In this document: positions 166-15,305 of the stretch, piece after piece
Numbering within the stretch: position 1 is the stretch's first letter
Layout: the number at the start of each line of letters is the position of its first letter
Source of the DNA: Planctomycetaceae bacterium
GTDB taxonomy: Bacteria; Planctomycetota; Planctomycetia; Planctomycetales; Planctomycetaceae
Assembly (NCBI GenBank): GCA_947476295.1
Contig: CANJQC010000030.1
Coordinates: 1-48,929 of the forward strand
Reading direction: 5' to 3'
DNA length: 48,929 nucleotides
The notes under the pieces: generated by a model
What the model saw: the letters and a program-made list of their open reading frames with translations, nothing else
What the model was told of the DNA's origin: nothing
Databases searched by the model: none
Program-made: the position numbers and the translations under genes

Positions 166-645
166 CACGACCTTAGAGCATCGGGACAGACTCCAAGCCG
201 AAGGGTACTTGAACTAGTAAGATAGGGGGAGGGAGGGCTGAATGAATTCTTTTTGCGCCTCGAAGATTTCCCGATAGTCCTCGATACACGCTGTGCCCTG
301 TTTGGTACCTTTGGTGTTTTTCGTGGTCAAACGACTTGGTGTGATGAACTTCAATAATGCAGGGGGCATCGCCCTAAAACTCGCCAGCCTCGTCGACTGA
401 ATTCTTCTCAGAAATACAATACTCTTAACGTTTGCTGAGCAGATCCGGGGGCTAGGGACGAACCGCATGTGATTGGCGACGCTCTTGAAATTGCTGCTCC
501 CAATGACATGTCGGAAGTGGACAGGCCTTTGATGTTGATGAGCCTGCTCGGGACCTGGCGAAATAAGCGAGGATTTGCTAGAAATCAGGCGATCGTCGGC
601 TTCTGACTGATTTCAATTAGCAGTCTCTTGAAAGGAGACTTTTCA
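166..645. other. Intergenic stretch without a supported gene
   Basis: Small ORFs occur on both strands but none has a recognisable domain or a convincing ribosome binding site. The minus-strand ORF at 214-468 looks like random low-complexity translation. Only the ribosome binding site of the next gene (AAAGGAG, 631-637) is clear. Confidence 0.5.
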
Positions 646-945
646 ATGGCAACTTTCATCGCGACCATCAAGTTTACACAGCAGGGCGTCAAAGGCATCG
701 ACGACAGCACAAAGCGGGCAGCGGCTCTCAAGGCGGCTGCGAAGAAGCTGGGGGCCAAAGTCACGAACGTTTATTGGACGCTGGGCGAATACGACGGGCT
801 GCTGATTCTTGAAGCCCCGGACGATGAGACGGCTATGACCGTACTCCTGCATTTGGCTGCGTTGGGCAACGTCCACACAACGACCGTGCGTGCATTTACC
901 GCCGCTGAGATGGACAAGATCATCGCCAAGGTGCATGTGGGTTAA
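646..945 (+). CDS. GYD domain-containing protein
   Basis: A 99-residue protein that fits the GYD family, small ferredoxin-fold dimeric proteins of unknown role. The family signature region is visible as YWTLGEYDGLLILEAPDDE in the middle, after an N-terminal strand ATFIATIKFTQQG. The start at 646 is chosen over the upstream in-frame ATG at 628 because AAAGGAG (631-637) lies 8 bases before it. It has no signal peptide or membrane segment, so it is probably cytoplasmic. It stands alone between decayed sequences and gives no operon clue. Length and start match typical family members. The substrate or ligand is unknown. Confidence 0.85.
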   Translation: MATFIATIKFTQQGVKGIDDSTKRAAALKAAAKKLGAKVTNVYWTLGEYDGLLILEAPDDETAMTVLLHLAALGNVHTTTVRAFTAAEMDKIIAKVHVG

Positions 946-1284: not shown

Positions 1285-1775
1285 CTAAATAGCTTTGATA
1301 CCAAGGACTTGCATCAGGAAGTCATCATTCCAGCCACAGATTCGTCGTTTCATGGCGAGGCTGTCCTTGCCGGGATGTTGTTTCAGCAGAGACAAAGTGA
1401 AGCGTCGGAGCCAGGCAAGATTCTCAGCGATCGTCCGTGTCCCTTCTTTGTCTCTTCTTCCAGACGTTCCGATGGAACGCCTGCGAAGTCATCGCGGATG
1501 TGTTCATCGACGTAATTCATCACCTGTTGAAACAGGCTGTCCTCATTCGCTTTTAATGCCAGAATGAAATCACCTTTGCCCTCAACAATCTGTTCGGCAA
1601 TGGCTGTTTGAGTTCCCATGGCATCGATCGTGATGATGGCACCTTTCAGATCGATCGCCATGTGAGTCTTTTCTTCAGCGCTGATGCCAGCCTTCTCTCT
1701 CGCAGCATCACGCAGTGACTCTTCAAAGTGACAGACAACTTCGCAGAGCCCAATACTGACATCAGACCGTGACAT
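1285..1775 (-). mobile_element. ISAs1-type transposase, internally deleted remnant
   Basis: Pieces of an ISAs1-family DDE transposase are present in order but with gaps: an N-terminal scrap (CEVVCHFEE), a middle scrap (SLRDAAREKAGISAEE), the catalytic block DLKGAIITIDAMGTQTAIAEQ through GHGR, then after a frame change AENLAWLRRFTLSLLK up to a stop at 1285. The total is 491 bp, where an intact family gene is roughly 1.1-1.3 kb. The first two joins keep the frame. The third, after GHGR, shifts it and drops roughly 90 codons including the final catalytic acidic region. It is therefore inactive. No clean terminal inverted repeats were recognised at either end. Confidence 0.75.
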
Positions 1776-1929: not shown

Positions 1930-4251
1930 TCAACGTTTTCGTCCCAGCCACACAAGCCCGGCCCCCGTGCAACTGACCAGCACCGAGATCGTCAGGAACC
2001 ATGTCGGTAGTGACGATTCGTTTTCGACATTCAGGTTCAGCCCGATGAACTGCAGCACCGGATCCAGTTCTTTCAGCGACAGCAGCAATCCATTGCTCAA
2101 TGCGTGCATCACGATGCCAGGAAAAATGCTGCCACTGGAAAATCGAATACCGCACAACACCAGACCAAGCAGGAACGTCGCTGGAAAACGCTCCAGCGTC
2201 AGGGACTGATCTACGATCACATGAAACGCGGCGAACAACAGCGTGCTGATCAAAAACGGTCGTACCCACTGTTTTTCGTTCTTCTGAAGAGTACTGATCA
2301 GGAATCCTCGGAAAAACAATTCTTCGCAAACCGCCGGAACCAGCGCCAGAGTCGCGATGCGAATAAGGAACGGTGTCTCGGAAGTCAGTCGTTCTGCCAA
2401 CTCTTTGAGTTTCGTGTTGTTCAGGATCTCCATCCACTGCAACGGTGCCTTTGAAAAAATCAAAACCTGATACGCGATTGTCCACATGGTGCAACCCAGC
2501 AATGCCGCTCCGATAAGCGAAGCGATGTGGAACTTGTGCAGGGCGAAGACTTCCACTGCGGATGCACGAATCCATTTTGCGATTGCTAGTGGCAAAACCG
2601 CGAACAACAAAATCGTTAACAAGCCTGAGAGGAGCAACTGCCCGGACAAATTATCCAGCGGCACAATGCGACTGCGCAGAGCGGAGAGTATCAGAAACAG
2701 CGGAATCAGCAGCATCAGCCAGCCAATGCCGATCTCAACCGGAATCCGCAAACGAATTTTCCCGGGGCGTTTCGTCAGGGCTGAAACACCGGCGGAACTG
2801 CCGAACAACACCGCGTCGTGCCCGAATACACTGGCCGCCACGCGCAGCGCCAGCATCGTGTACACAAGCGTTGAAAGGAGTGCAACGAAATACAGATGTG
2901 TGGCGGCAGTTCCCTGAAGCAGTTCGCGGCCCAGAAGGACGATGTTAACCAGCGGAACCAGAGCCAGTCCGACTGTCAGATGCACACCCGGCATCAGGCT
3001 CAGAATCCCCGGCGCGAGCGAGACCAGCATCAGAGGAATGAGCCACGCCTGAGCTTCCCGAAAACTGCGAGCAAAGCTGGTAATGGACAGCAGCACGGCA
3101 GAGAAGAATGACGCGAACACCACCAGCAATGCCAAAATCTGAAGGAACATTTGAAACGTCGCGCCATCCGCCAGCAAAACACGATCAAAGCCCGTAGCGT
3201 AGAGCGTAAGCACCATCGCGACGAGATTGATGACGGCTGTCAGCACCGCGACCGTCAGTACGGCGATGAATTTTCCGGTCAGCAAATGAGCACGCGAAAC
3301 TGGCGCGGCCATCAGGATTTCAAGCGTACCGCGTTCGCGTTCGCCGGCTGTCAAATCAATCGCCGGATACACAGCACCCGTCATTGTCATCAGCACGAGC
3401 ATCAGTGGCAAAAAGGCACCAAGTGGCGATGATTTTGGTGCGTTATTTGCCACTGATTGCCTGGAAATTGTCGGCATGATGCCGGAACCTAGGCCAGTTT
3501 GGTTCAACCGTATGCGAACGTGGCGATCCCGAAATGCCAACAGGCGTTCTTCCACCTCAACCGCCGCACGCAGGCTGAACTCGTCACCGCTGCGGCTGAG
3601 AACCTGAAAATCGGCGGGCTGAACAACACCTGTTGTCGTGTCCTGAGCCGCCGGTGTCTGCCGAATTCCGACATCTGCGTCTTCGGCCTTCAGGAACTCT
3701 TCGACGTATTGCGCCTTCACGGGATGTTCGTATCGCTGGAATCTGACTGGCGGGCCGTCCGAATCACCGCGATTTGTCAATGATCCGATCGCGTCAGCAG
3801 TGGAAGAACCGGTGAGCAAAGTGGCCACATCCTGCGGAGACGGAGATGGATGCACCGAGTCCCGTCGGGTTGCACTATCTGCACCATCGACGGACTTTTC
3901 CGCTCTGTCATCCCTGTTCGGATCGGAATTCGGTTCTGCTTCTTCCAGGATTGCCGTCGCAAGTTCGTCAGGAATACTGCCATCGAAGACCACGATGGCG
4001 GGCGGAGAATTCGGATTGATTCGATTGATTGCGAATCTCTGGACTACGGAACCCAGCAGTGGATATACGATCAACGGCATCACGATCAGCGTCACCAGAG
4101 TGCGTCGATCTCGCAGTGATTCTCGCAGCTCCTTTCGAGCCAGCCGCAGCACGCGAAGAATCGATGACCGTGGTTTTAATGCACCTTGCGTGGCAGATTT
4201 GCTTTGCCGAAGATTCAGTTCGTCACTGTGGTGATCGCCGGTTGGGTTCAC
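1930..4251 (-). CDS. ABC-2 permease fused to CPBP membrane protease
   Basis: A 773-residue membrane protein with two parts. The N-terminal part is an ABC-2 (NatB-like) permease: one membrane segment near residues 45-65, a large extracytoplasmic loop, then several helices. The C-terminal part (from about 530) is a CPBP/Abi intramembrane protease with all three motifs visible: EELFFRG (residues 643-649), FAAFH, and MHALSN. The start is GTG at 4251, which overlaps the stop of the upstream ATPase gene in a GTGA arrangement. The longer ATG ORF would run about 200 bases into that gene and is rejected. The pair likely forms one exporter; the substrate is unknown. The fusion is known in planctomycetes and some other bacteria. 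Confidence 0.88.
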   Translation of the reverse strand: MNPTGDHHSDELNLRQSKSATQGALKPRSSILRVLRLARKELRESLRDRRTLVTLIVMPLIVYPLLGSVVQRFAINRINPNSPPAIVVFDGSIPDELATAILEEAEPNSDPNRDDRAEKSVDGADSATRRDSVHPSPSPQDVATLLTGSSTADAIGSLTNRGDSDGPPVRFQRYEHPVKAQYVEEFLKAEDADVGIRQTPAAQDTTTGVVQPADFQVLSRSGDEFSLRAAVEVEERLLAFRDRHVRIRLNQTGLGSGIMPTISRQSVANNAPKSSPLGAFLPLMLVLMTMTGAVYPAIDLTAGERERGTLEILMAAPVSRAHLLTGKFIAVLTVAVLTAVINLVAMVLTLYATGFDRVLLADGATFQMFLQILALLVVFASFFSAVLLSITSFARSFREAQAWLIPLMLVSLAPGILSLMPGVHLTVGLALVPLVNIVLLGRELLQGTAATHLYFVALLSTLVYTMLALRVAASVFGHDAVLFGSSAGVSALTKRPGKIRLRIPVEIGIGWLMLLIPLFLILSALRSRIVPLDNLSGQLLLSGLLTILLFAVLPLAIAKWIRASAVEVFALHKFHIASLIGAALLGCTMWTIAYQVLIFSKAPLQWMEILNNTKLKELAERLTSETPFLIRIATLALVPAVCEELFFRGFLISTLQKNEKQWVRPFLISTLLFAAFHVIVDQSLTLERFPATFLLGLVLCGIRFSSGSIFPGIVMHALSNGLLLSLKELDPVLQFIGLNLNVENESSLPTWFLTISVLVSCTGAGLVWLGRKR

Positions 4252-5060
4252 GCAGACCTGCCTTCGCGTTTTGGGACTGTCACCACGGGCTGAGGCTGCA
4301 TGGATTCTTCGGTCGTGGAATCGTTCTCCTGCATCAGATCGAGAAATATGTCGGTGATGGAATCGCGTCCGGATTTCTCCCGCAATTCTGTCAGTGTGCC
4401 TTGCAGTTGCAGGCGACCACGGAACATCAGGCCGAAACGATCGCACAACCGCTGAGCTTCCTCAAGGCGATGCGTGCAGAAGATCACAGCCTTGCCCATT
4501 TCCTTCAACCGTGCGGTGAAATCAAAGATACGTTTTGAACCGACTATGTCTAGACCTCGCGTTGGCTCATCCATCAGTACAACCGGAGGATCATGCATCA
4601 GTGACCTTGCCAGATTGACACGTTGCTGTTGTCCGGTGCTTAAACCAGAACATGGCCGATCAATAAACTCTCGCAGATCGAACAATTTCGTTAGTAACTC
4701 GACCCGCTGTTGGGCAGCGTGATCTGCAACATCATAGAGATCAGCAAAGTAGTGCATCAGTTCTCGCGGTGACAACCATTGATACAGCCCAGCGCTGGCG
4801 GAGACCAGAGCCACACTGCGTTTGACCTGTTCCGGCTGCGTTGCCGCATCGAATCCGGCGACGGATGCCTTTCCTGTAGTCGGCTTCATCAGCCCCAGAA
4901 TCATACGGAGCGTCGTGGTTTTCCCGGCACCGTTTGCCCCCAGCAGCCCAAATACTTCACCACTTTTAACATTCAGCGACAGCCCATTCACAGCGTGGAC
5001 GTCACCGACAGGCGTCGCAAAAATCTTATACAGATTGATCGCTTCGATAAGATCAGGCAT
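4248..5060 (-). CDS. ABC transporter ATP-binding protein (NatA-like)
   Basis: A 270-residue ATPase subunit. Walker A GANGAGKT is at residues 41-48, the signature LSTGQQQRV is in the middle, and Walker B VVLMDEP is followed by the H-loop ICTHR. The start is set at 5060 (MPDLIEAINLYKIF), where family members begin; the 45 extra upstream codons are unlike any ABC protein. It is co-transcribed and translationally coupled (4-base overlap) with the permease-protease fusion that follows. It powers export by that permease at the cytoplasmic face. The 278-base gap to the divergent ketosynthase gene probably holds both promoters. Confidence 0.92.
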   Translation of the reverse strand: MPDLIEAINLYKIFATPVGDVHAVNGLSLNVKSGEVFGLLGANGAGKTTTLRMILGLMKPTTGKASVAGFDAATQPEQVKRSVALVSASAGLYQWLSPRELMHYFADLYDVADHAAQQRVELLTKLFDLREFIDRPCSGLSTGQQQRVNLARSLMHDPPVVLMDEPTRGLDIVGSKRIFDFTARLKEMGKAVIFCTHRLEEAQRLCDRFGLMFRGRLQLQGTLTELREKSGRDSITDIFLDLMQENDSTTEESMQPQPVVTVPKREGRSA

Positions 5061-5338
5061 GGTCCGCTTTCGCGATTGAATCTTTGAGCCCGCAGTGACA
5101 GAGGCTGTCAAGGCTTCATAGCAGTACGCCGATTGACGCCGTAAAATGATCTGTTTTCGTCGCAGATTCAAGGAACTTGGCGTAGTGCTTGTCATGCTTT
5201 CGGTATCCAGATACCCTGCTGGCCTTTTCCAGAACCTCCTGCGCGACGAAAAGTCGCTCGGTTCATCGAGAAAACAGGCCGCTTTCGAAGGGATCGGACG
5301 GCTTTCCCAGCAGTTGCGATTGGCGTTGAGGTCATCTA

Positions 5339-6574
5339 TTGTCGGTTCAGGATCGAATTGTCATCACCGGGATTGGACTGACTTCCCCGAACGGAAACAG
5401 TCTGGCGGAGTTCCGTCAGAATCTTCTGGACGGGAAGTCCGGTGTTGTAAATTACGAAACGCGGTACATAGGCCCGGTACTGGCGGGCGTCTGTAATTTC
5501 GACGAACTGCGGTATCAGAAAAAGAAAGATATCCGCAGAGGGACGCGAGCTGGGTCGATTGCCGTCTACTGCGCGAATGAAGCCGTCCGTGACTCTGGGC
5601 TCAACTGGCCCAGCGTTGCGCGTGATCGGGTCGGCGTTTATATTGGTATCACAGAACACGGCAATGTGGAGACTGAAAATGAGATCTACGAGATCTCAAA
5701 ATTTCAGTACGACACAAAAGTCTGGTCGCATCATCACAATCCACGTACCGTCGCCAACAATGCTGCTGGCGAAGTGACGCTGAATATGGGCATCACGGGG
5801 CCTCATCTGACGCTCGGTGCCGCTTGTGCGGCGGGAAACGCTGGGTTTATTCAGGCAGCTCAAATGCTGCGGTTGGATGAAGTTGATATCGCGATCGCAG
5901 GCGGCGTGTCAGAGAGTATTCGCACGTTTGGAATCTTTGCCAGTTTCTCAGCGCAGGGAGCTTTGGCAACGCACGAGGACCCAACGAAAGCCTGCCGTCC
6001 ATTTGACATCAATCGCAATGGCATCGTCGTGGCGGAAGGCGGCGGAATCTGCACGGTTGAACGTCTACCCGACGCGCTGGCGCGTGGTGCAAAAATTTAT
6101 GCGGAAATCATTGGCTATGCCATGAATTCAGACGCTCGGGATTTTGTCCTGCCAGACGCCAATCGTCAGGCTGAATGTATGCAATTGGCGATGAAGCGAG
6201 CAAAAATCAACGCAGATCAGATCGATATCGTCAGCAGCCATGCCACGGCGACAGAGCAGGGCGATATTGAAGAAGCGAGTGCGTTGCGGCGAATTTTCGG
6301 GGACAGCAAGGCCGTCATCAACAATACGAAGAGCTTTATTGGGCACGCGATGGGGGCTGCGGGGGCTTTGGAAATGCTGGGCAATTTGCCGTCGTTTGAC
6401 GATGGCATTGCCCACGCTACAATCAATCTGGATGATGTCGATCCGCGGTGTGCGTTGCCGAATCTCGTTATCAATCAACCCCGAGAATTGGGCAATGTGA
6501 GCTGCATTCTGAACAATTCATTCGGTATGCTGGGCATCAATTCGGTTGTCATCCTCCGCAAGTTTGTGGGATGA
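5339..6574 (+). CDS. Beta-ketoacyl-ACP synthase (FabF-like)
   Basis: A 411-residue thiolase-fold condensing enzyme that would extend an acyl-ACP by decarboxylative condensation. The active-site residues sit where FabF has them: Cys163 (GAACAAGN), His301 (SSHATATEQGD), Lys331 and His336 (NNTKSFIGHAMGAAGALE). It is a full-length single KS with no partner chain-length factor. The start is TTG at 5339, preceded by GAGGT 7 bases upstream. Together with the ACP, FAD oxidoreductase and DJ-1-like genes it heads a four-gene cluster. It contains its own KS-type residues rather than the KAS III set, so it is more likely FabF-type than FabH. Its substrate is unknown, and a housekeeping role is unlikely given the neighbours. 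Confidence 0.9.
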   Translation: MSVQDRIVITGIGLTSPNGNSLAEFRQNLLDGKSGVVNYETRYIGPVLAGVCNFDELRYQKKKDIRRGTRAGSIAVYCANEAVRDSGLNWPSVARDRVGVYIGITEHGNVETENEIYEISKFQYDTKVWSHHHNPRTVANNAAGEVTLNMGITGPHLTLGAACAAGNAGFIQAAQMLRLDEVDIAIAGGVSESIRTFGIFASFSAQGALATHEDPTKACRPFDINRNGIVVAEGGGICTVERLPDALARGAKIYAEIIGYAMNSDARDFVLPDANRQAECMQLAMKRAKINADQIDIVSSHATATEQGDIEEASALRRIFGDSKAVINNTKSFIGHAMGAAGALEMLGNLPSFDDGIAHATINLDDVDPRCALPNLVINQPRELGNVSCILNNSFGMLGINSVVILRKFVG

Positions 6575-6654
6575 CGGTCTGCGGGCGGTGAGTTGTTTTT
6601 TATGGATTTCGGATTACCAAGAAGCATCCGGTTGAACAGCGAGAGGGTGGTTTA

Positions 6655-6918
6655 ATGACGTCAGATCAGATTCGGCAGGTGATTCTGGAAATTCTGGAGC
6701 GGATTGCTCCGGACGAGGATCTCACCGATCTGGATGACGTGCGTCCATTTCGTGAACAGATGGAACTGGACAGCATGGACTTTCTGGATATTGTGATGGA
6801 ACTTCGGAAGATGTACCGCATCCAAATTCCAGAAGAAGATTATTCGAACCTCAACACCATGGCGGGCACGGTGGAATATCTGCTGCCACGACTCAAGGAT
6901 GTTGCGGTCGGAGCGTGA
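6655..6918 (+). CDS. Acyl carrier protein
   Basis: An 87-residue acidic helical protein with the phosphopantetheine attachment motif LDSMDF; the modified Ser is residue 40. The length and motif position match stand-alone ACPs. It lies 80 bases after the ketosynthase and before the FAD oxidoreductase, so it is probably dedicated to this cluster and not the housekeeping AcpP. The sequence around the Ser (ELDSMDFLDIVMELRK) differs from the usual DSLDTVEL of AcpP. A purine-rich AGGG lies shortly before the ATG. Confidence 0.92.
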   Translation: MTSDQIRQVILEILERIAPDEDLTDLDDVRPFREQMELDSMDFLDIVMELRKMYRIQIPEEDYSNLNTMAGTVEYLLPRLKDVAVGA

Positions 6919-6966
6919 GGTGAGGGTCGTTCGAATATAACAGCTAACATCCCCGGGCGGGATTTC

Positions 6967-7047
6967 TGTAGCTTGGACATTCATGTCCGAGTCCCTCAGA
7001 GGAAAGTATTTCCACGTGATGCGACGGACATGAACGTCCATCCTACA
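6967..7047. repeat. Palindromic element (family B) inside the operon
   Basis: The arms at 6967-6989 and 7025-7047 are inverted copies, 20 of 23 positions paired, of TGTAG..TGGAC.TTCATGTCCG. Each arm itself contains the near-palindrome GGACATTCATGTCC. The element lies between the ACP gene and the FAD gene. A related but disrupted copy lies at 21140-21343. It could form a strong hairpin in the mRNA. Confidence 0.65.
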
Positions 7048-7077
7048 TACGAAATCACCGGTCGGAAGGTTATTGCT

Positions 7078-8454
7078 GTGCGTTATGACACGGTCATTAT
7101 CGGTGCTGGAATGTCCGGTCTGTCAGCTGGCGTTCGTTTGGCATACTTTGAAAAGAATGTCTGCATTCTGGAGCGTCACACCACGGTTGGTGGTCTGAAT
7201 TCGTTCTACCGACTGCGAAAACGCAACTACGACGTTGGGCTCCACGCCGTGACCAATTACGCGGAACCTGGCACAAAGCAGGGGCCGCTCAGCAAACTCT
7301 TGCGTCAGTTGCGAATGAAATGGGAAGACTTCGACCTCCGCCCGCAACTTCGGTCTTCAATCGTATTCCCTGACTGCGCACTCCATTTTACGAACCAGTT
7401 CAACTTCTTCGTCGAACAAATCGCCGCTGCATTTCCACAGCAGATCGACGGCTTCCGCAGACTGGTGACTCGGATTGCTGAACACGACGCACTGGATCTT
7501 GAACGATCGGCATTGTCCGCTCGGCAGGTTGTGTCGGAATATATTCGTGATCCGCTGTTGATCGATATGATCTTCTGTCCGTTGATGTTTTACGGCAGCG
7601 CTACGCCGCGGGACATGGACTTCAATCAGTTCGTGATTATGTTCAAGAGTATTTTTCACGAAGGCTTCGGGCGGCCATTCGATGGCATTCGGCTCATTCT
7701 CAAACGACTGGTAAGACACTTCAAATCCTTGGGCGGACATTTGAAGCTTCGCGCGGGAGTCCAGGAAATTCGACAGACCAACGGCGTGGCGACGTCGGTG
7801 CTGCTCGACGACGGAACCGAAATCGAAGCCGAAAATATTCTGTCATCAGCGGGTGCGGCGGAAACCATGAGAATGGTCGATCCCAACGCTCCGCTGATGA
7901 AGGCAGAGCCGGGCGACATTTCCTTCGTGGAATCCATCAGTGTGCTTGATTGCGAACCAGCATCTCTGGGACACCGCGATACGATTGTGTTCTACAGCGA
8001 TTCCAAAGAGTTCCACTACGAGCGCCCGAACGTCCCCGTTGATCTGCGGAGTGGCATCGTGTGTTCGCCAAATAATTTTGACTATTCACAGCCACTGGAA
8101 GACGGACGAATTCGCATTACGGCTCTCGCAGATCCGCATTACTGGTTAAATCTGTCGGAAGAAGATTACGCCGCTGCAAAGGATTACTGGAACTCACAAA
8201 TCATCCAAAGTGCGTTACAACATCTGCCGGACTTCCGTCCGCATGTGATCGACACGGACGTGTTTACTCCTCGCACCATTCAGCGGTTTACCGGCCACAT
8301 GAATGGCTGTGTCTACGGCGCGCCGCAGAAATTTGTCAATGGTCAGACCCCAGTGCGCAATCTCTACCTTTGCGGAACGGACCAAGGTTTCCTAGGGATC
8401 GTCGGCGCAATGCTGAGTGGTATCACGATTGCCAATCGCTATCTGTTGAAATAG
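7078..8454 (+). CDS. CrtI-like NAD(P)/FAD-dependent oxidoreductase
   Basis: A 458-residue flavoprotein of the phytoene desaturase/carotenoid isomerase class. The N-terminal dinucleotide-binding motif is VIIGAGMSGLSAG, right after the start. The C-terminal FAD-contact region LYLCGTDQGFLGIVGAMLSG is intact. The start is GTG at 7078, because GGAAGG (7064-7069) lies 8 bases upstream. The longer ATG ORF from 6973 would read through the palindromic element. The protein probably desaturates or isomerises a lipid-like chain made with the adjacent ketosynthase and ACP; this is inference. No carotenoid synthase gene is nearby, so an ordinary carotenoid role is not supported. Confidence 0.85.
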   Translation: MRYDTVIIGAGMSGLSAGVRLAYFEKNVCILERHTTVGGLNSFYRLRKRNYDVGLHAVTNYAEPGTKQGPLSKLLRQLRMKWEDFDLRPQLRSSIVFPDCALHFTNQFNFFVEQIAAAFPQQIDGFRRLVTRIAEHDALDLERSALSARQVVSEYIRDPLLIDMIFCPLMFYGSATPRDMDFNQFVIMFKSIFHEGFGRPFDGIRLILKRLVRHFKSLGGHLKLRAGVQEIRQTNGVATSVLLDDGTEIEAENILSSAGAAETMRMVDPNAPLMKAEPGDISFVESISVLDCEPASLGHRDTIVFYSDSKEFHYERPNVPVDLRSGIVCSPNNFDYSQPLEDGRIRITALADPHYWLNLSEEDYAAAKDYWNSQIIQSALQHLPDFRPHVIDTDVFTPRTIQRFTGHMNGCVYGAPQKFVNGQTPVRNLYLCGTDQGFLGIVGAMLSGITIANRYLLK

Positions 8455-8477
8455 CCAACCGGCAGTAAGGGCAATAC

Positions 8478-9050
8478 ATGTCATCCAGCAAAGTGCTTAT
8501 CATTGTCGGCGATGCGACTGAAACGCTCGATACAATGTACCCGTATTATCGGCTCATCGAATCCGGCTTTCAGCCTGTCGTCGCCGCGCCAGAGAAGCGC
8601 CGTTATCAGATGGTGCTGCACGAAGTGAAGCCTGGCTGGACGATCACGAAGGAATGGGAAGGCTATTCGATCGACGCTGACATCGCTTTCAGTGATGTCT
8701 GTGAGGAAGAGTACGCTGGGATTTTTTTTTCCGGCGGGCGGGCTCCGGAATATATTCGCTACGACGAAAATCTTGTACGCATCACGCGTTATTTCTTCGA
8801 AGTCAACAAGCCAATCGCGAGTGTCTGCCACGGCGTGGAGATTCCCGCTTTCGCTGGCTGCGTTAAAGGACGCCGCATGGCCACCGTTCCGAAATGCCGT
8901 TTCGATCTGGAAGTCTGCGGCGGGATTTTCGTCGACGAACCATGCGTCATCGATCGTAACCTCGTGAGCGGTCGCACCTGGCACGATAACGGCCACTACG
9001 TTGCCCCATGGATTAAGTTGCTTGAGAGCTCGCGCACCGGCAGTCTGTGA
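8478..9050 (+). CDS. DJ-1/PfpI family protein
   Basis: A 190-residue glutamine-amidotransferase-like protein. The nucleophile elbow is ASVCHGVEIPA, with Cys at the sharp turn followed by His, and the preceding FFSGGRAPEY strand-turn matches the family. It lies 23 bases after the FAD oxidoreductase with AAGGG before its ATG, so the two are almost certainly co-transcribed. Members include deglycases, chaperones, hydratases and isonitrile hydratases, so the reaction cannot be told from sequence. The context suggests a tailoring or protective role in the ketosynthase/ACP pathway. Confidence 0.88.
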   Translation: MSSSKVLIIVGDATETLDTMYPYYRLIESGFQPVVAAPEKRRYQMVLHEVKPGWTITKEWEGYSIDADIAFSDVCEEEYAGIFFSGGRAPEYIRYDENLVRITRYFFEVNKPIASVCHGVEIPAFAGCVKGRRMATVPKCRFDLEVCGGIFVDEPCVIDRNLVSGRTWHDNGHYVAPWIKLLESSRTGSL

Positions 9051-11285: not shown

Positions 11286-12953
11286 ATGCTTAAGGAAAAG
11301 ACAATTTCCAGCGTGGAGACAGCGATCGACGGTATTGTGAGTAATTCCGCGACGGTATCGGTGGAAACGCGAATTCAGCTTTGTCGACAATGCCTTGATA
11401 GTGTCGTCGCCGTCGCGGACGAATGGACCGAACAGGCTGCGATTGCGAAAGGGCTTTCAAATACGTCAGCGTTGCGAGCGGAAGATCTGCTGAGCGGTCC
11501 CGGAGTCGTAGCTCGTCAGTTGCAGTTGACCATTCAATCGCTTCGAGGCATCCAGAGGCAGGGGCGTCCGTCTTTGCCAGGCCGACCAGTGCGACTACAG
11601 AATGGCCAGTTTTCGATCCCCGTTTTTCCGAGCTCTGGACTGTTCGACAGCCTTACATTCATGGGGATGCGAGGGTCCGTCAGGCTGCATACTGGCGTCG
11701 CCGAAGGAGCCATCCACGGGCAACTCCCGGAAGCAGCCACGAATCCAAAGCTGCGAATGGTGACGGCAGTTCTGGGGGCGGGAAATGTGTCGTCCATTCC
11801 CGCAACAGACAGTCTCAACAGGATCATGTTTGAAGGCAGCAGAGTGGTCCTTAAGCTGAATCCTGTCAATGAGTATCTGTACCCGATCTTCCAGAAGGCC
11901 TTTGCGCCATTAGTCAAAGCGAACCTTCTACGCATCCTGACCGGTGGAGCAGACGTTGGCGAAGCGTTGATTCAGAATGACGCGGTAGATGCTGTCCATA
12001 TTACCGGATCCGCAACAACACATGACGCGATCGTGTGGGGCAAGGATCTTAACGAACGCATTCGCCGCAAGCAGTGCGACGATCCGGTGCTGAAGAAGAA
12101 CGTGACCAGCGAGCTTGGAAACGTGACTCCGTGGATTGTCGTCCCCGGTGTCTATACCGCACGACAGCTGGATTCACAGGCACAGCATATTGCCACATCA
12201 ATTACGAATAATGCCTCATTCAACTGCCTGGCCACAAAAATCATTCTGACCTGGAAAAATTGGGCCCAGCGCGATCAGTTCCTTCAGCGGATTCAGCACC
12301 ATTTGTCGCAGACACCATTCCGTCCGGCGTACTATCCGGGGGCGGCGGAACGTTATCGGCGGTTCACGGGTTTATCGGTTCAGCCTGATGAGCGAGGTTG
12401 CCTGCCGTGGACTCTGTTGACGGGAACGTCGATTGAACAGCGGCCTGAATTGTTTCAGGAAGAGTCGTTTGTCTGCGTCTGTGCGGAGACCCAACTGGCT
12501 GGTGACACTCCAGAACATTTCCTTGCCGCAGCAACCGAGTTTGTGAATGATCGAGTTAACGGGACCTTGTGTGCGTCCGTCACCATCCCGCAGGGATTCC
12601 GTCATCAGCATGCGAAATCGTTTGAACGCTGCCTCGAAAAACTTCGTTACGGTTCAGTCTGTGTGAATCAATGGTCCGGACTCGCTTATGGTCTGACAAG
12701 TCCGCCCTGGGGAGCCTATCCCGGCGCAACCCTAAAGGATGTCCACAGCGGTATCGGAAATGTACACAATACGTATTTACTCGATCGCGTAGAAAAAACG
12801 GTGTTGGAAGGCCCTTTAGTGAACTTCCCTAGGCCTGTCTGGTTCCCTTCACATCGAAACGCTGTGAGTGTGGCAAGTCGACTTTTGCGTCTGTACCATC
12901 GTCCATCAATGTTCCATCTTCCGGGGCTGTTTGCGGCCGCGATTACAGGGTAA
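11286..12953 (+). CDS. Aldehyde dehydrogenase family protein
   Basis: A 555-residue protein of the NAD(P)+-dependent aldehyde dehydrogenase superfamily. The general base Glu276 lies in SELGN and the catalytic Cys314 in NASFNCLATK. The cofactor-domain motif HITGSATTHDAIVWG corresponds to the usual FTGS region. It is somewhat longer than the common 480-500 residues, with an extended N-terminus and a C-terminal tail. No signal peptide is seen, so it is cytoplasmic. It is 30 bases upstream of the beta-helix/diheme gene on the same strand, so the two are likely co-transcribed. The substrate is unknown. The motifs are divergent, so substrate class should not be guessed. Confidence 0.85.
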   Translation: MLKEKTISSVETAIDGIVSNSATVSVETRIQLCRQCLDSVVAVADEWTEQAAIAKGLSNTSALRAEDLLSGPGVVARQLQLTIQSLRGIQRQGRPSLPGRPVRLQNGQFSIPVFPSSGLFDSLTFMGMRGSVRLHTGVAEGAIHGQLPEAATNPKLRMVTAVLGAGNVSSIPATDSLNRIMFEGSRVVLKLNPVNEYLYPIFQKAFAPLVKANLLRILTGGADVGEALIQNDAVDAVHITGSATTHDAIVWGKDLNERIRRKQCDDPVLKKNVTSELGNVTPWIVVPGVYTARQLDSQAQHIATSITNNASFNCLATKIILTWKNWAQRDQFLQRIQHHLSQTPFRPAYYPGAAERYRRFTGLSVQPDERGCLPWTLLTGTSIEQRPELFQEESFVCVCAETQLAGDTPEHFLAAATEFVNDRVNGTLCASVTIPQGFRHQHAKSFERCLEKLRYGSVCVNQWSGLAYGLTSPPWGAYPGATLKDVHSGIGNVHNTYLLDRVEKTVLEGPLVNFPRPVWFPSHRNAVSVASRLLRLYHRPSMFHLPGLFAAAITG

Positions 12954-12983: not shown

Positions 12984-15305
12984 GTGCAACATATAAGTTT
13001 TTGTCCGACTGCTGGCCTGATCCTCTCGATCCTGTTGTACTCAGCAACAGTGAGTCGGGCTGAGGAAAAGACGGGCGGTGAGTCCGCTAAACTGACAGCC
13101 ACTACCAAAATTCTGCAACCCGGTGACAGAGTACAATTCGAATTGCAGGCGGCATTGATCAACGCCGTGCCCGGTGACGTGATTGAACTCAAAGCGGGTA
13201 CATACCACTTTAACACTGAGCTGAACGTCGTGTGTGACAACATCACTATTCGTGGTGCCGGACGCGATAAAACCGTTCTGTCATTTACGAATCAGTCCGC
13301 AGGAAGCAGCGGGATTGTTGCGACGGGTAATGCGTTTGTAATTGAGCATCTGGCCGTTGAAGACACAGTTGGAAATGCGATCAAGGTTCTTGGAGCACAA
13401 GACGTCACTTTCCGTAACGTTCGCGTGGAGTGGACCGCAGGGCCTAAATCGACGAATGGTGCCTACGGCATTTATCCGGTCGAGTGCCGGAATGTCTTGA
13501 TCGAAGACTGTGTATCCATCGGAGCATCAGATGCGGGGATCTATGTCGGCCAGTCACAGGACGTCATTGTCCGCGGATGTCTCGCAAAACAAAACGTGGC
13601 TGGCATTGAAATTGAAAATACGCTGCGGGCGGACGTCTTCGACAACACGGCGACCGACAATACCGGAGGTATTCTGGTATTCGACCTGCCCGGTCTTAAC
13701 CTGACCAATGGTGGCCAGGTGCGGGTTTTTCAAAACCGGATTACCGACAACAATTACGAAAACTTTGCACCAAAAGGAACAATGGTTGCCGACGTTCCGG
13801 CCGGGACAGGCGTCATGCTCATGGCGACAGACAACGTCGAGATCTTTGATAACGACATTACAGACCACCAAACGACCAACGTGCTTGTTGCCAGTTTTCT
13901 GATCACAGAACGAAAGGTCAATGATGCGAATTACGACCCATTTCCAGAGAACGTTTCAATTCATGATAACCGCATTGCCGGAGGCGGATTGAAGCCAGCC
14001 GGACAATTGAGCACGCTCCTGGCTCCACTGACCGGCGGCGTGTTTCCCGACATTTTTTATGACGGAATTTTGAACCCTGCAAAACTTAAGGATGCGAAAG
14101 TACCGGCCGTCTTTTCATTGCGAATTCGTGACAATGGAGACGCAAGTTTCGCAAACATGAACATTGGTGATCTTTCAGTCAATAACATCAAGGCAGGCAA
14201 GTACAGCATTGGACGTGACCTCGGGCCGTACGGCGCTGATATTCCACCGGTTGATTCGGTAACCCTGCTGCCACATGGCACTGCGTCATCGCAAGGGAAC
14301 CCGGCGGTGGCCGTCTACCGATCGGCACCCGAGAAACTCTCAACATGGGGGCTGTACGTAAACCAAAGCAACCGCTGGGTGCCGGCGGAGGGACTGATTG
14401 AGTATGAGCTAAACACACCATTGTTCTCTGACTACACTTTGAAACACCGCTTTGTGCGACTCCCAAAGGGTGAGCACATGACGTGGCATGAGACAGAGTC
14501 TTTGGAATTTCCTGTTGGTACCGTCATCGCCAAGACGTTTGCCTATCCCGATAAGACAGATGATCGAACTCCAGGCGAGCGGATTGTGGAGACTCGTATC
14601 GAACTACGGGAACCGTCTGGATGGTATGGCTACTCATACGTGTGGGACGAAAATCAGTCCGATGCGTCTTTAAGCCTCGGAGGTGGTGCCGTTGATGTCA
14701 CATGGAAGCACGAGGATGGCAGCCTCCATCACAACACATACCAGATACCCAACGCCAACCAGTGTCTCAGTTGCCACAGCAACAATGATAAATACGTGCC
14801 GTTAGGAACAACAGCCCGGAACCTCAACCGGCGTGGCGTGGAAGAGGGCGCCGCAAATCAACTTGCTCAATGGGCCGAATGCGGTTTGCTGAAGGGATGC
14901 CCGTCGCCGGAAGATCGCCCGAAACTTGCGGCATACAATGATCCGAACAGCGGGTCGCTGGATCAAAGAGCACGGGCATGGCTGGAGGTGAACTGCGCGC
15001 ACTGCCATCAACCGACGGGCTCTGCCAGGACGTCCGGGCTGGACCTCAGGACAGTGCAGACAGAACCTGCCAAATTCGGTGTCTTCAAATCGCCCGTCGC
15101 AGCCGGAAGCGGCACCGGTGGCAGACGATACGACATCATTCCTGGCAAGCCCGATGAATCCATCCTGATGTTTCGGCTGGAAACAGAGATTCCAGGAGCG
15201 AGAATGCCGAATTTGGCACGTAATCTGATTCACGAGGAATCAAATCGACTGATACAAGAGTGGATTCTCGCAATGAAGCCCGAAGCGGATGCGACTCAGA
15301 AATGA
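12984..15305 (+). CDS. Parallel beta-helix and diheme cytochrome c fusion
   Basis: A 773-residue exported protein with a signal peptide ending near VSRA. Residues about 50-390 form a right-handed parallel beta-helix like the TIGR03805 family (repeated N-V-x-I-x-D/N rungs). Residues about 420-770 match the HNE_0200/SO2930 diheme cytochrome family (TIGR03806), with heme sites CLSCH (594-598) and CAHCH (671-675). In other bacteria these are usually two neighbouring genes; here they are one continuous frame. The start is GTG at 12984 with AAAGGA 7 bases upstream. It probably acts in the periplasm as an electron carrier tied to an unknown oxidation, perhaps together with the aldehyde dehydrogenase before it. 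Confidence 0.88.
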   Translation: MQHISFCPTAGLILSILLYSATVSRAEEKTGGESAKLTATTKILQPGDRVQFELQAALINAVPGDVIELKAGTYHFNTELNVVCDNITIRGAGRDKTVLSFTNQSAGSSGIVATGNAFVIEHLAVEDTVGNAIKVLGAQDVTFRNVRVEWTAGPKSTNGAYGIYPVECRNVLIEDCVSIGASDAGIYVGQSQDVIVRGCLAKQNVAGIEIENTLRADVFDNTATDNTGGILVFDLPGLNLTNGGQVRVFQNRITDNNYENFAPKGTMVADVPAGTGVMLMATDNVEIFDNDITDHQTTNVLVASFLITERKVNDANYDPFPENVSIHDNRIAGGGLKPAGQLSTLLAPLTGGVFPDIFYDGILNPAKLKDAKVPAVFSLRIRDNGDASFANMNIGDLSVNNIKAGKYSIGRDLGPYGADIPPVDSVTLLPHGTASSQGNPAVAVYRSAPEKLSTWGLYVNQSNRWVPAEGLIEYELNTPLFSDYTLKHRFVRLPKGEHMTWHETESLEFPVGTVIAKTFAYPDKTDDRTPGERIVETRIELREPSGWYGYSYVWDENQSDASLSLGGGAVDVTWKHEDGSLHHNTYQIPNANQCLSCHSNNDKYVPLGTTARNLNRRGVEEGAANQLAQWAECGLLKGCPSPEDRPKLAAYNDPNSGSLDQRARAWLEVNCAHCHQPTGSARTSGLDLRTVQTEPAKFGVFKSPVAAGSGTGGRRYDIIPGKPDESILMFRLETEIPGARMPNLARNLIHEESNRLIQEWILAMKPEADATQK

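Follow-up and report, generated by a model that had tools for sequence, protein, structure and literature searches.

The window analyzed here is a 48,929-nucleotide stretch, contig C30 (CANJQC010000030.1) of a Planctomycetaceae assembly of 5,986,839 bases in 252 contigs. It carries a run of genes for a FabF-like ketosynthase (KS), an acyl carrier protein (ACP), and a CrtI-like flavin adenine dinucleotide (FAD) enzyme, here called CrtI1. By comparison of gene content and gene order among genomes, we judge with good confidence that this trio is part of a dissociated (type II) synthase of polyunsaturated acyl chains that supplies OleA, with a hydrocarbon of the C31:9 type as the probable product. 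Handles beginning with C, L, G, and f denote our contigs, loci, genomes, and families, respectively.

A conserved KS-ACP-CrtI1 trio

An earlier note on the window had described a four-gene unit that ended in a DJ-1/PfpI-family gene, with all genes on one strand and gaps of 80, 159, and 23 bases. Reading frames and Pfam matches agreed with the four families, their strand, and the gaps (Table 1), counted with the CrtI1 start at GTG 7078. The longest CrtI1 open reading frame (ORF) opens at TTG 6973; we preferred GTG 7078 because its position matches the start of most orthologues. The catalytic residues named in the note also held up on alignment. KS residues Cys163, His301, Lys331, and His336, the catalytic Cys, two His, and Lys of the FabF/KS superfamily, were invariant in 15 of 15 aligned orthologues (59 to 94% identity to the window KS, itself included among the 15), and Ser40 of the ACP lies within LDSMDFLDIVMELRK / LDSMDF.

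We compared gene neighborhoods in 36 stretches from a search of 59 related genomes and in 40 from a phylum-wide search, the latter representing 40 of 95 genomes with KS. Among 77 loci in all (two of which are halves of one genome's KS), the 68 in which sequence ran on for 3.2 kb or more rightward of the KS start were assessed, and shorter loci were excluded; L135, whose reading frame contains a stop, was omitted from the CrtI1 alignment. An ACP gene directly followed KS in 64 of the 68 loci, and ACP and CrtI1 both followed in 56. A DJ-1 gene came after the trio in two: the window and L040, from the same genus. We therefore regard KS-ACP-CrtI1 as the unit. The proposal of a dedicated, conserved pathway in which a CrtI-class flavoprotein adjoins a KS and an ACP thus stands for these three genes, which are commonly adjacent in relatives, and not for the four-gene unit; DJ-1 was not adopted as a conserved fourth member.

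Judging from its occurrence, the DJ-1 gene is probably a bystander. Across 331 loci compared, copies exceeding 80% identity were present only in L040 and L100. The L100 copy (257-823, minus strand, 80%), from genome G020 of the same family as the window's genome, lies about 9 kb from a second CrtI-like gene described below, CrtI2, on the opposite strand. This copy argues against a simple passenger and may point to a looser association of DJ-1 with the module.

The ketosynthase as a dedicated paralogue

Against the FabF model TIGR03150 (cut-off, 493.75 bits), the window KS scored 316 bits, and another gene of the same genome passed with 595.5 bits; the genome has 13 PF00109 matches. The KS is therefore not the only FabF of its genome, a possibility the earlier note had raised, and we rejected a housekeeping FabF role for it. 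Its distant FabF score, together with the cut-off-passing FabF elsewhere, instead marks it as a specialized paralogue. All 15 aligned orthologues share the C-terminal motif SFGM[L/V]GIN; the corresponding stretch of the genome's FabF reads SFAFGGHN. Orthologues were found at 66% identity or more in 36 of the 59 related genomes (the window's own counted; two in pieces), and, leaving out the window's own gene, at 57 to 83% identity in 95 of the 392 genomes drawn evenly from the phylum. Other listed KS matches reached at most 36% in these searches.

Further genes of the proposed synthase and Ole genes

The earlier note had found no ketoreductase, dehydratase, acyltransferase, or thioesterase beside the four genes. 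The idea that the system lacks reductase, dehydratase, and release enzymes is not supported. In relatives, genes for ketoreductase, FabZ, FabI, and Ole enzymes share the run of the trio. Locus L138 carries, on one strand, KS-ACP-CrtI1-CrtI2-KR-FabZ-FabI-OleA-OleB-OleC, where KR is a ketoreductase with an NCBIfam match to 3-oxoacyl-ACP reductase (284.5 bits) and FabZ and FabI match their models at 88.8 and 168.2 bits. Its OleA matched PRK09258, ketoacyl synthase III (409.6 bits), and its best PDB matches were 3row (1e-58) and 3fk5 (6.1e-57), which we take to be OleA of Xanthomonas. OleB is haloalkane-dehalogenase-like, and OleC scored 643 bits against PRK09274 and 507 bits against olefin beta-lactone synthetase. 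An OleD, in L067, matched the 2-alkyl-3-oxoalkanoate reductase model at 429 bits. Curated cut-offs were passed for PRK09258 and PRK09274 and missed for the olefin-specific, OleD, FabZ, FabI, and ketoreductase equivalog models.

Placement of the Ole genes relative to KS varies among families. They lie 5' of KS on the same strand in L065 to L067, L137, L140, L141, L151, L154, and L161 to L163; 5' on the opposite strand in L136 and L145; and 3' of KS in L138, L146 to L148, L152, and L155 to L158. OleA was within 10 kb of KS in 38 of the 95 KS genomes, and OleD was directly upstream of KS in six genomes congeneric with that of the window. It is this extended set, with its Ole genes, that allows a product class to be proposed.

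The supposed absence also fails in the window's genome, where other contigs carry FabZ, FabI, CrtI2, OleA, and OleC (Table 1), the last two being genes of the Ole pathway. The OleC scored 648 bits against PRK09274 (cut-off, 478); against two models for olefin beta-lactone synthetase it reached 565 and 501 bits, short of the cut-offs of 900 and 850. No OleB or OleD occurred in the stretches fetched around the set, with no genome-wide search made; in the same fetched stretches, and likewise with no genome-wide search, ketoreductase matches reached only 28 to 29% and stood beside two type I polyketide synthases (PKSs).

Table 1. Genes of the trio, the adjoining DJ-1 gene, and the scattered set in the window's genome
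Feature	Location	Strand	Match
KS, FabF-like	window 5339-6574	+	ketoacyl-synt 2.2e-38 and Ketoacyl-synt_C (Pfam)
ACP	window 6655-6918	+	PP-binding 7.4e-08 (Pfam)
CrtI-like FAD enzyme 1 (CrtI1)	window 7078-8454	+	Amino_oxidase 5.9e-13 and NAD_binding_8 (Pfam)
DJ-1/PfpI-family protein	window 8478-9050	+	DJ-1_PfpI 5.4e-31 (Pfam)
CrtI2	C80:15675-17090		67% identity
FabI	C80, ~6 kb from CrtI2	opposite to CrtI2	65% identity
FabZ	C174:4191-4622		59% identity
OleA	C20:25166-26206		52% to L065 OleA
OleC	C32:38081-39667		51% to L067 OleC

The extended loci show some further features. Reading frames that by eye resemble phosphopantetheinyl transferases lie 3' of FabI in some of them. In two genomes of family f30, the FabZ-like gene is split in frame (L137:11845-13041 and L140:13666-15078) by an insert that reads like what we presume to be a REP-associated transposase. 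The FabI-like proteins of L138 (3923-4723, minus strand) and L065 (5060-5863, minus strand) apparently, by eye, keep Y-x6-K and miss what we take to be the second active-site tyrosine of Escherichia coli FabI; their reaction could be a changed one.

Joint presence with OleA and exclusion of PfaD

We searched the 392 phylum genomes for KS and CrtI2 (E ≤1e-90), for OleA (1e-40), and for PfaD (TIGR02814, over cut-off), by which the known polyunsaturated fatty acid (PUFA) synthase is recognized. KS was found in 95 genomes, CrtI2 in 96, and both in 94; in the related-genome set, CrtI2 (1e-60) was present in 39 of 59 genomes, including all 36 with KS. OleA occurred in 146 phylum genomes and in 94 of the 95 with KS. 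PfaD was over the cut-off in 52 genomes and in none of the 95, and it had no match in the window's genome. The two candidate suppliers divided the 146 OleA genomes almost completely: 96 had KS and/or CrtI2, 47 had PfaD, none had both, and 3 had neither. Among the 246 genomes lacking OleA, one had KS/CrtI2 and five had PfaD.

A tree of OleA was built from 40 rows, hand-picked for family spread: 20 came from the 94 genomes with KS and OleA, and 20 from the 47 with PfaD and OleA. One branch with 100/100 support separated the KS class from the PfaD class; families f1 and f53 are represented on either side of it, and OleA of the window's genome falls on the KS side. Each supplier therefore travels with its own OleA lineage, a pattern that fits matched modules and replacement of the module as a whole.

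An auxiliary pathway that makes a fatty acid or polyene lipid of its own, and is linked to Ole only incidentally, would explain why KS-ACP-CrtI and Ole genes lie apart in the window's genome, as they do in most of the family f1 loci examined. It would also suit the presence of OleC in 51 of the 59 related genomes, only 36 of which have KS, and the 52 of 146 OleA genomes without KS. The near-complete nesting of KS within OleA presence, the PfaD exclusion, and the separate OleA lineages make this explanation unlikely, as does KS-Ole linkage in several gene orders and phyla.

CrtI-like flavoproteins

The AlphaFold2 model of CrtI1 had a predicted local distance difference test score of 89.4. Its nearest solved fold was the gamma-carotenoid desaturase 4rep (Z of 29.9 over 432 residues; root mean square deviation of 3.5), which was also nearest to the CrtI2 model (Z of 32.1). 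Together with its Amino_oxidase match, this places CrtI1 in the FAD fold of the CrtI/amine-oxidase superfamily. Scores against characterized families were low: 89.8 bits for the best NCBIfam match, the CrtISO carotenoid isomerase TIGR02730 (cut-off, 586.9), and 49.8 bits for the CrtI phytoene desaturase TIGR02734 (cut-off, 238.1). CrtI2 of the window's genome had no PDB sequence match at 1e-8.

Pfam and NCBIfam thus put CrtI1 in the CrtI/CrtISO superfamily, and Pirellulaceae are reported to make C40 and C45 carotenoids (PMC12078418), so the genes might be imagined to serve pigment synthesis, with an isoprenoid-acting CrtI-like enzyme and the KS and ACP as unrelated neighbors. We consider this very improbable. 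The KS-ACP-CrtI1 order is retained across several families and in other phyla, no isoprenoid gene recurs among the clustered neighbors (by eye), and the scores lie far below the carotenoid cut-offs. The suggestion in the earlier note of a modified lipid or polyene chain is supported instead, and the flavoprotein probably acts on an ACP-bound polyene chain.

FAD-dependent shifting of a double bond in an acyl chain has a precedent in the fatty acid isomerase of Propionibacterium acnes (2b9w), whose substrate is a free fatty acid. Both models share its flavoprotein fold (Z of 22.8 for CrtI1 and 23.2 for CrtI2), at 13% identity and with many oxidases of the superfamily scoring as well or better.

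The same module and product class could also be reached if the CrtI-like enzymes were true acyl-ACP desaturases and not isomerases acting within the elongation cycle. This version overlaps our preferred reading, and we find it somewhat doubtful, with arguments on both sides. The common resemblance to 4rep favors it, as does the FabI of the set, which would suit a chain that is saturated first; anaerobic desaturation was moreover proposed for Kuenenia and Desulfotalea by Rattray in 2009 (PMC2649909). On the other hand, a full dedicated elongation set (KS, ACP, ketoreductase, dehydratase, and enoyl reductase) would hardly be needed to desaturate housekeeping acyl chains, the best NCBIfam match of CrtI1 is an isomerase, if far under its cut-off, and two Kuenenia homologues are reported to have failed to desaturate phytoene in E. 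coli (PMC4790861). None of these counterpoints is decisive.

Loci outside the phylum

Beyond the window's phylum, scanning with an alignment of CrtI2 retained 80 of at least 566 relatives, many of them metagenome-assembled genomes (MAGs); no prevalence was drawn from it. Among the matches listed, CrtI2 loci came mostly from Desulfobulbales, both MAGs and isolates (Desulfosediminicola flagellatus, Desulforhopalus vacuolatus, and Desulfogranum japonicum). Others belonged to Verrucomicrobia/Opitutae (Geminisphaera colitermitum TAV2 and Cerasicoccus arenae), Bacteriovoracaceae, Halobacteriovorax, Chloroflexi/Dehalococcoidia, and Nitrospinae. Within the fetched stretches of these 80 listed matches, 56 had KS, ACP, and CrtI1, 43 had an Ole gene, and 33 had both this core and an Ole gene; in L225, L250, and others, CrtI2 stood alone in the fetched stretch. 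In 19 of the 80 genomes, hand-picked for a search of OleA and PfaD, OleA was found in all 19 and PfaD was over the cut-off in none.

OleA, OleC, and OleD also act in beta-lactone pathways (PMC7064751), and the end product could in principle be a beta-lactone or ketone that these three enzymes form from polyene chains. In L138 and L140, an OleB-like hydrolase separates OleA from OleC, and such hydrolases were present in 22 of the 80 listed loci from other phyla; with these in view, we regard such an end product as quite unlikely.

In a set of genomes around Desulforhopalus (G441, locus L201 of D. vacuolatus, included), CrtI2 was present in 47 of 58. Desulfotalea psychrophila is likewise a member of Desulfobulbales, in the family Desulfocapsaceae. 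The 2009 paper reports that it produces C31:8 and C31:9, has no gene resembling a PUFA-type polyketide synthase, and carries the CrtI-like ORFs DP1860, DP2405, and DP2406 (PMC2649909). The consecutive numbering of DP2405 and DP2406 hints at a pair of adjoining CrtI genes comparable to CrtI1-CrtI2.

Proposed pathway and points against it

Starting from the gene content, recurrent linkage, joint presence, PfaD exclusion, and matched OleA lineages that we observed directly, we infer by comparison that the module synthesizes the chain, that OleA receives it, how long it is, and what the two CrtI-like enzymes do. The synthase would consist of KS, ACP, CrtI1, CrtI2, a FabG-like ketoreductase, a FabZ-like dehydratase, and a FabI-like enoyl reductase. 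Cycles of condensation, ketoreduction, and dehydration would yield trans-2-enoyl-ACP, which FabI would saturate in some cycles; in others, the flavoenzymes would move the double bond from trans-2 to the cis-3 position or convert it to cis-2, which would preserve a methylene-interrupted pattern. The polyunsaturated acyl thioester would then pass to OleA, the synthase replacing Pfa as supplier, and head-to-head joining of two C16:4 chains by OleA, D, C, and B would give a very long polyene, the probable product being a hydrocarbon of the C31:9 type. C31:9 has been predicted to arise from two 4,7,10,13-hexadecatetraenoyl (16:4) chains through OleA-D, according to a 2016 review (PMC4882568). Counting back from 16:4 in steps of two carbons, KS, ketoreductase, and dehydratase would act in every cycle, with full reduction in some, the trans-2 to cis-3 shift in some, and the trans-2 to cis-2 turn in others. 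Since the operon offers one KS, one ACP, one ketoreductase, one dehydratase, one enoyl reductase, and two extra flavoproteins, the two isomerizations may fall to CrtI1 and CrtI2, an attractive but provisional assignment. A fuller version, held only tentatively, would be an oxygen-independent dissociated PUFA synthase, present in about six phyla, in which the CrtI pair takes over the positional (trans-2 to cis-3) and geometric (trans-2 to cis-2) isomerizations ascribed to the dehydratase domains of Pfa, and which has replaced the Pfa synthase as a block together with its own OleA lineage.

Several observations weigh against this reading. With respect to the genes themselves, 4 of the 68 assessed loci had no detected ACP and 12 had no detected CrtI1 adjoining KS, 5 of these 12 belonging to family f39, and in the window's genome the module is dispersed over several contigs. 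Of the large type I PKSs of that genome, two were scored, on C63 and C42, and they match PfaA at 667 and 604 bits, below the cut-off of 1010. Genome G007, of the same genus and 99% complete, carries CrtI2, FabZ, and OleC without a KS orthologue.

The distribution across genomes has exceptions too. G391 (61% complete) has KS and CrtI2, with OleA not detected. Genomes G061, G197, and G333 (54% complete) have OleA and neither supplier, and they may have a third supplier or be incomplete assemblies. PfaD matches far below the cut-off occur in five further phylum genomes, two of them with KS, and in 5 of the 19 outside genomes. The nominal Fisher value for supplier exclusion within the OleA genomes, 4e-35, is too small because the genomes are related, and the OleA tree split implies transfer in blocks and therefore few independent swaps.

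As for function, the roles proposed for the CrtI-like enzymes are drawn from fold and pathway logic, and fold alone fails to separate isomerase from desaturase. The identity of the D. psychrophila locus with this operon is suggested by gene numbering, and that case draws on PMC2649909 alone. Producers of C31:9 also make eicosapentaenoic or docosahexaenoic acid, according to the 2016 review (PMC4882568).

Relation to known systems

OleABCD takes ordinary or Pfa-made acyl thioesters as its starting material. OleA and OleC represent this pathway in the window's genome, and in many relatives OleA, OleB, OleC, or OleD stands beside the KS set; in contrast to the pathway as known, the chain source proposed here is a dedicated type II synthase. 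A functional parallel is the Pfa synthase coupled to OleABCD in Shewanella and in the pfa-ole tandem of Geobacter bemidjiensis, where Pfa supplies polyunsaturated chains for Ole-made C31:9 (PMC4882568 and PMC3098273); within the window's phylum, its marker PfaD is found in 47 of the 146 genomes with OleA. Pfa, however, is a giant multidomain enzyme set, whereas the module here consists of separate small proteins and two CrtI-like flavoproteins.

The nearest prior literature is Rattray 2009 (PMC2649909) and PMC3098273. The latter linked Pfa-like synthases to ole genes in 2011. The former proposed an anaerobic extension of type II fatty acid synthesis (FASII) for polyunsaturated chains and described the anammox ladderane candidates kuste3603-3608 and the CrtI/FASII loci of D. 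psychrophila, which likewise bring KS, ACP, FabZ, and CrtI-like genes together; a term search of it found that "oleA," "oleC," "olefin," and "head-to-head" never occur. Radical S-adenosylmethionine (SAM) enzymes and noncanonical FabF paralogues are central to ladderane clusters, and neither recurred in the neighborhoods examined here by eye. We therefore did not adopt ladderane membership, the lack of a recurrent radical SAM pattern having been judged by eye with no hidden Markov model scan of all neighbors; one YgiQ radical SAM neighbor lies in L138.

A literature survey at the level of titles and abstract openings, with most subscription papers and all preprints outside its scope, returned no description of the operon or of the Pfa exclusion, and the words "hydrocarbon" and "polyunsaturated" never occur in a 2025 review of planctomycete metabolites (term search, PMC12078418). 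We therefore read the module as a probable new source of chains for an already known hydrocarbon pathway. It would provide candidate genes for a question in print since 2009, that of C31 polyenes in organisms without a known PUFA synthase, such as D. psychrophila, and would predict a polyene source for about two-thirds (96 of 146) of the sampled OleA-bearing genomes of the phylum. If true, a set of small proteins, and not only a giant multidomain synthase, can build polyunsaturated chains; this would be attractive for engineering, given a compact set for heterologous expression of seven small genes plus oleABCD. Two CrtI-like families would gain a concrete candidate substrate, acyl-ACP, and the part played by CrtI-like genes in ladderane synthesis, whose pathway is unsolved, may become clearer.

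Other features of the window and its genome

Upstream of the trio, the window encodes an ABC-2 permease fused to a C-terminal CAAX-protease-like (Rce1-like) domain in a single 838-amino-acid ORF (1930-4446, minus strand), adjoined by an ATPase gene (4248-5195); among the 36 related-genome stretches, the permease is upstream of KS only in L039 and L040. A short ORF at 1383-1775 (minus strand) resembles by eye what is presumably a DDE transposase remnant. On the plus strand at 11286-12953, a 555-amino-acid protein matches aldehyde dehydrogenase weakly (40.8 bits, residues 176 to 343) and is a divergent member. Next to it, also on the plus strand (12984-15305), is a 773-amino-acid fusion of a beta-helix/NosD-like part with a C-terminal part bearing CxxCH-like motifs (by eye). 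Elsewhere in the genome, the type I PKSs of C63 and C42 that matched PfaA below its cut-off are located at L093:1315-9420 and L094:9348-17399, one of them with a C45 autoproteolytic acyltransferase-like domain.

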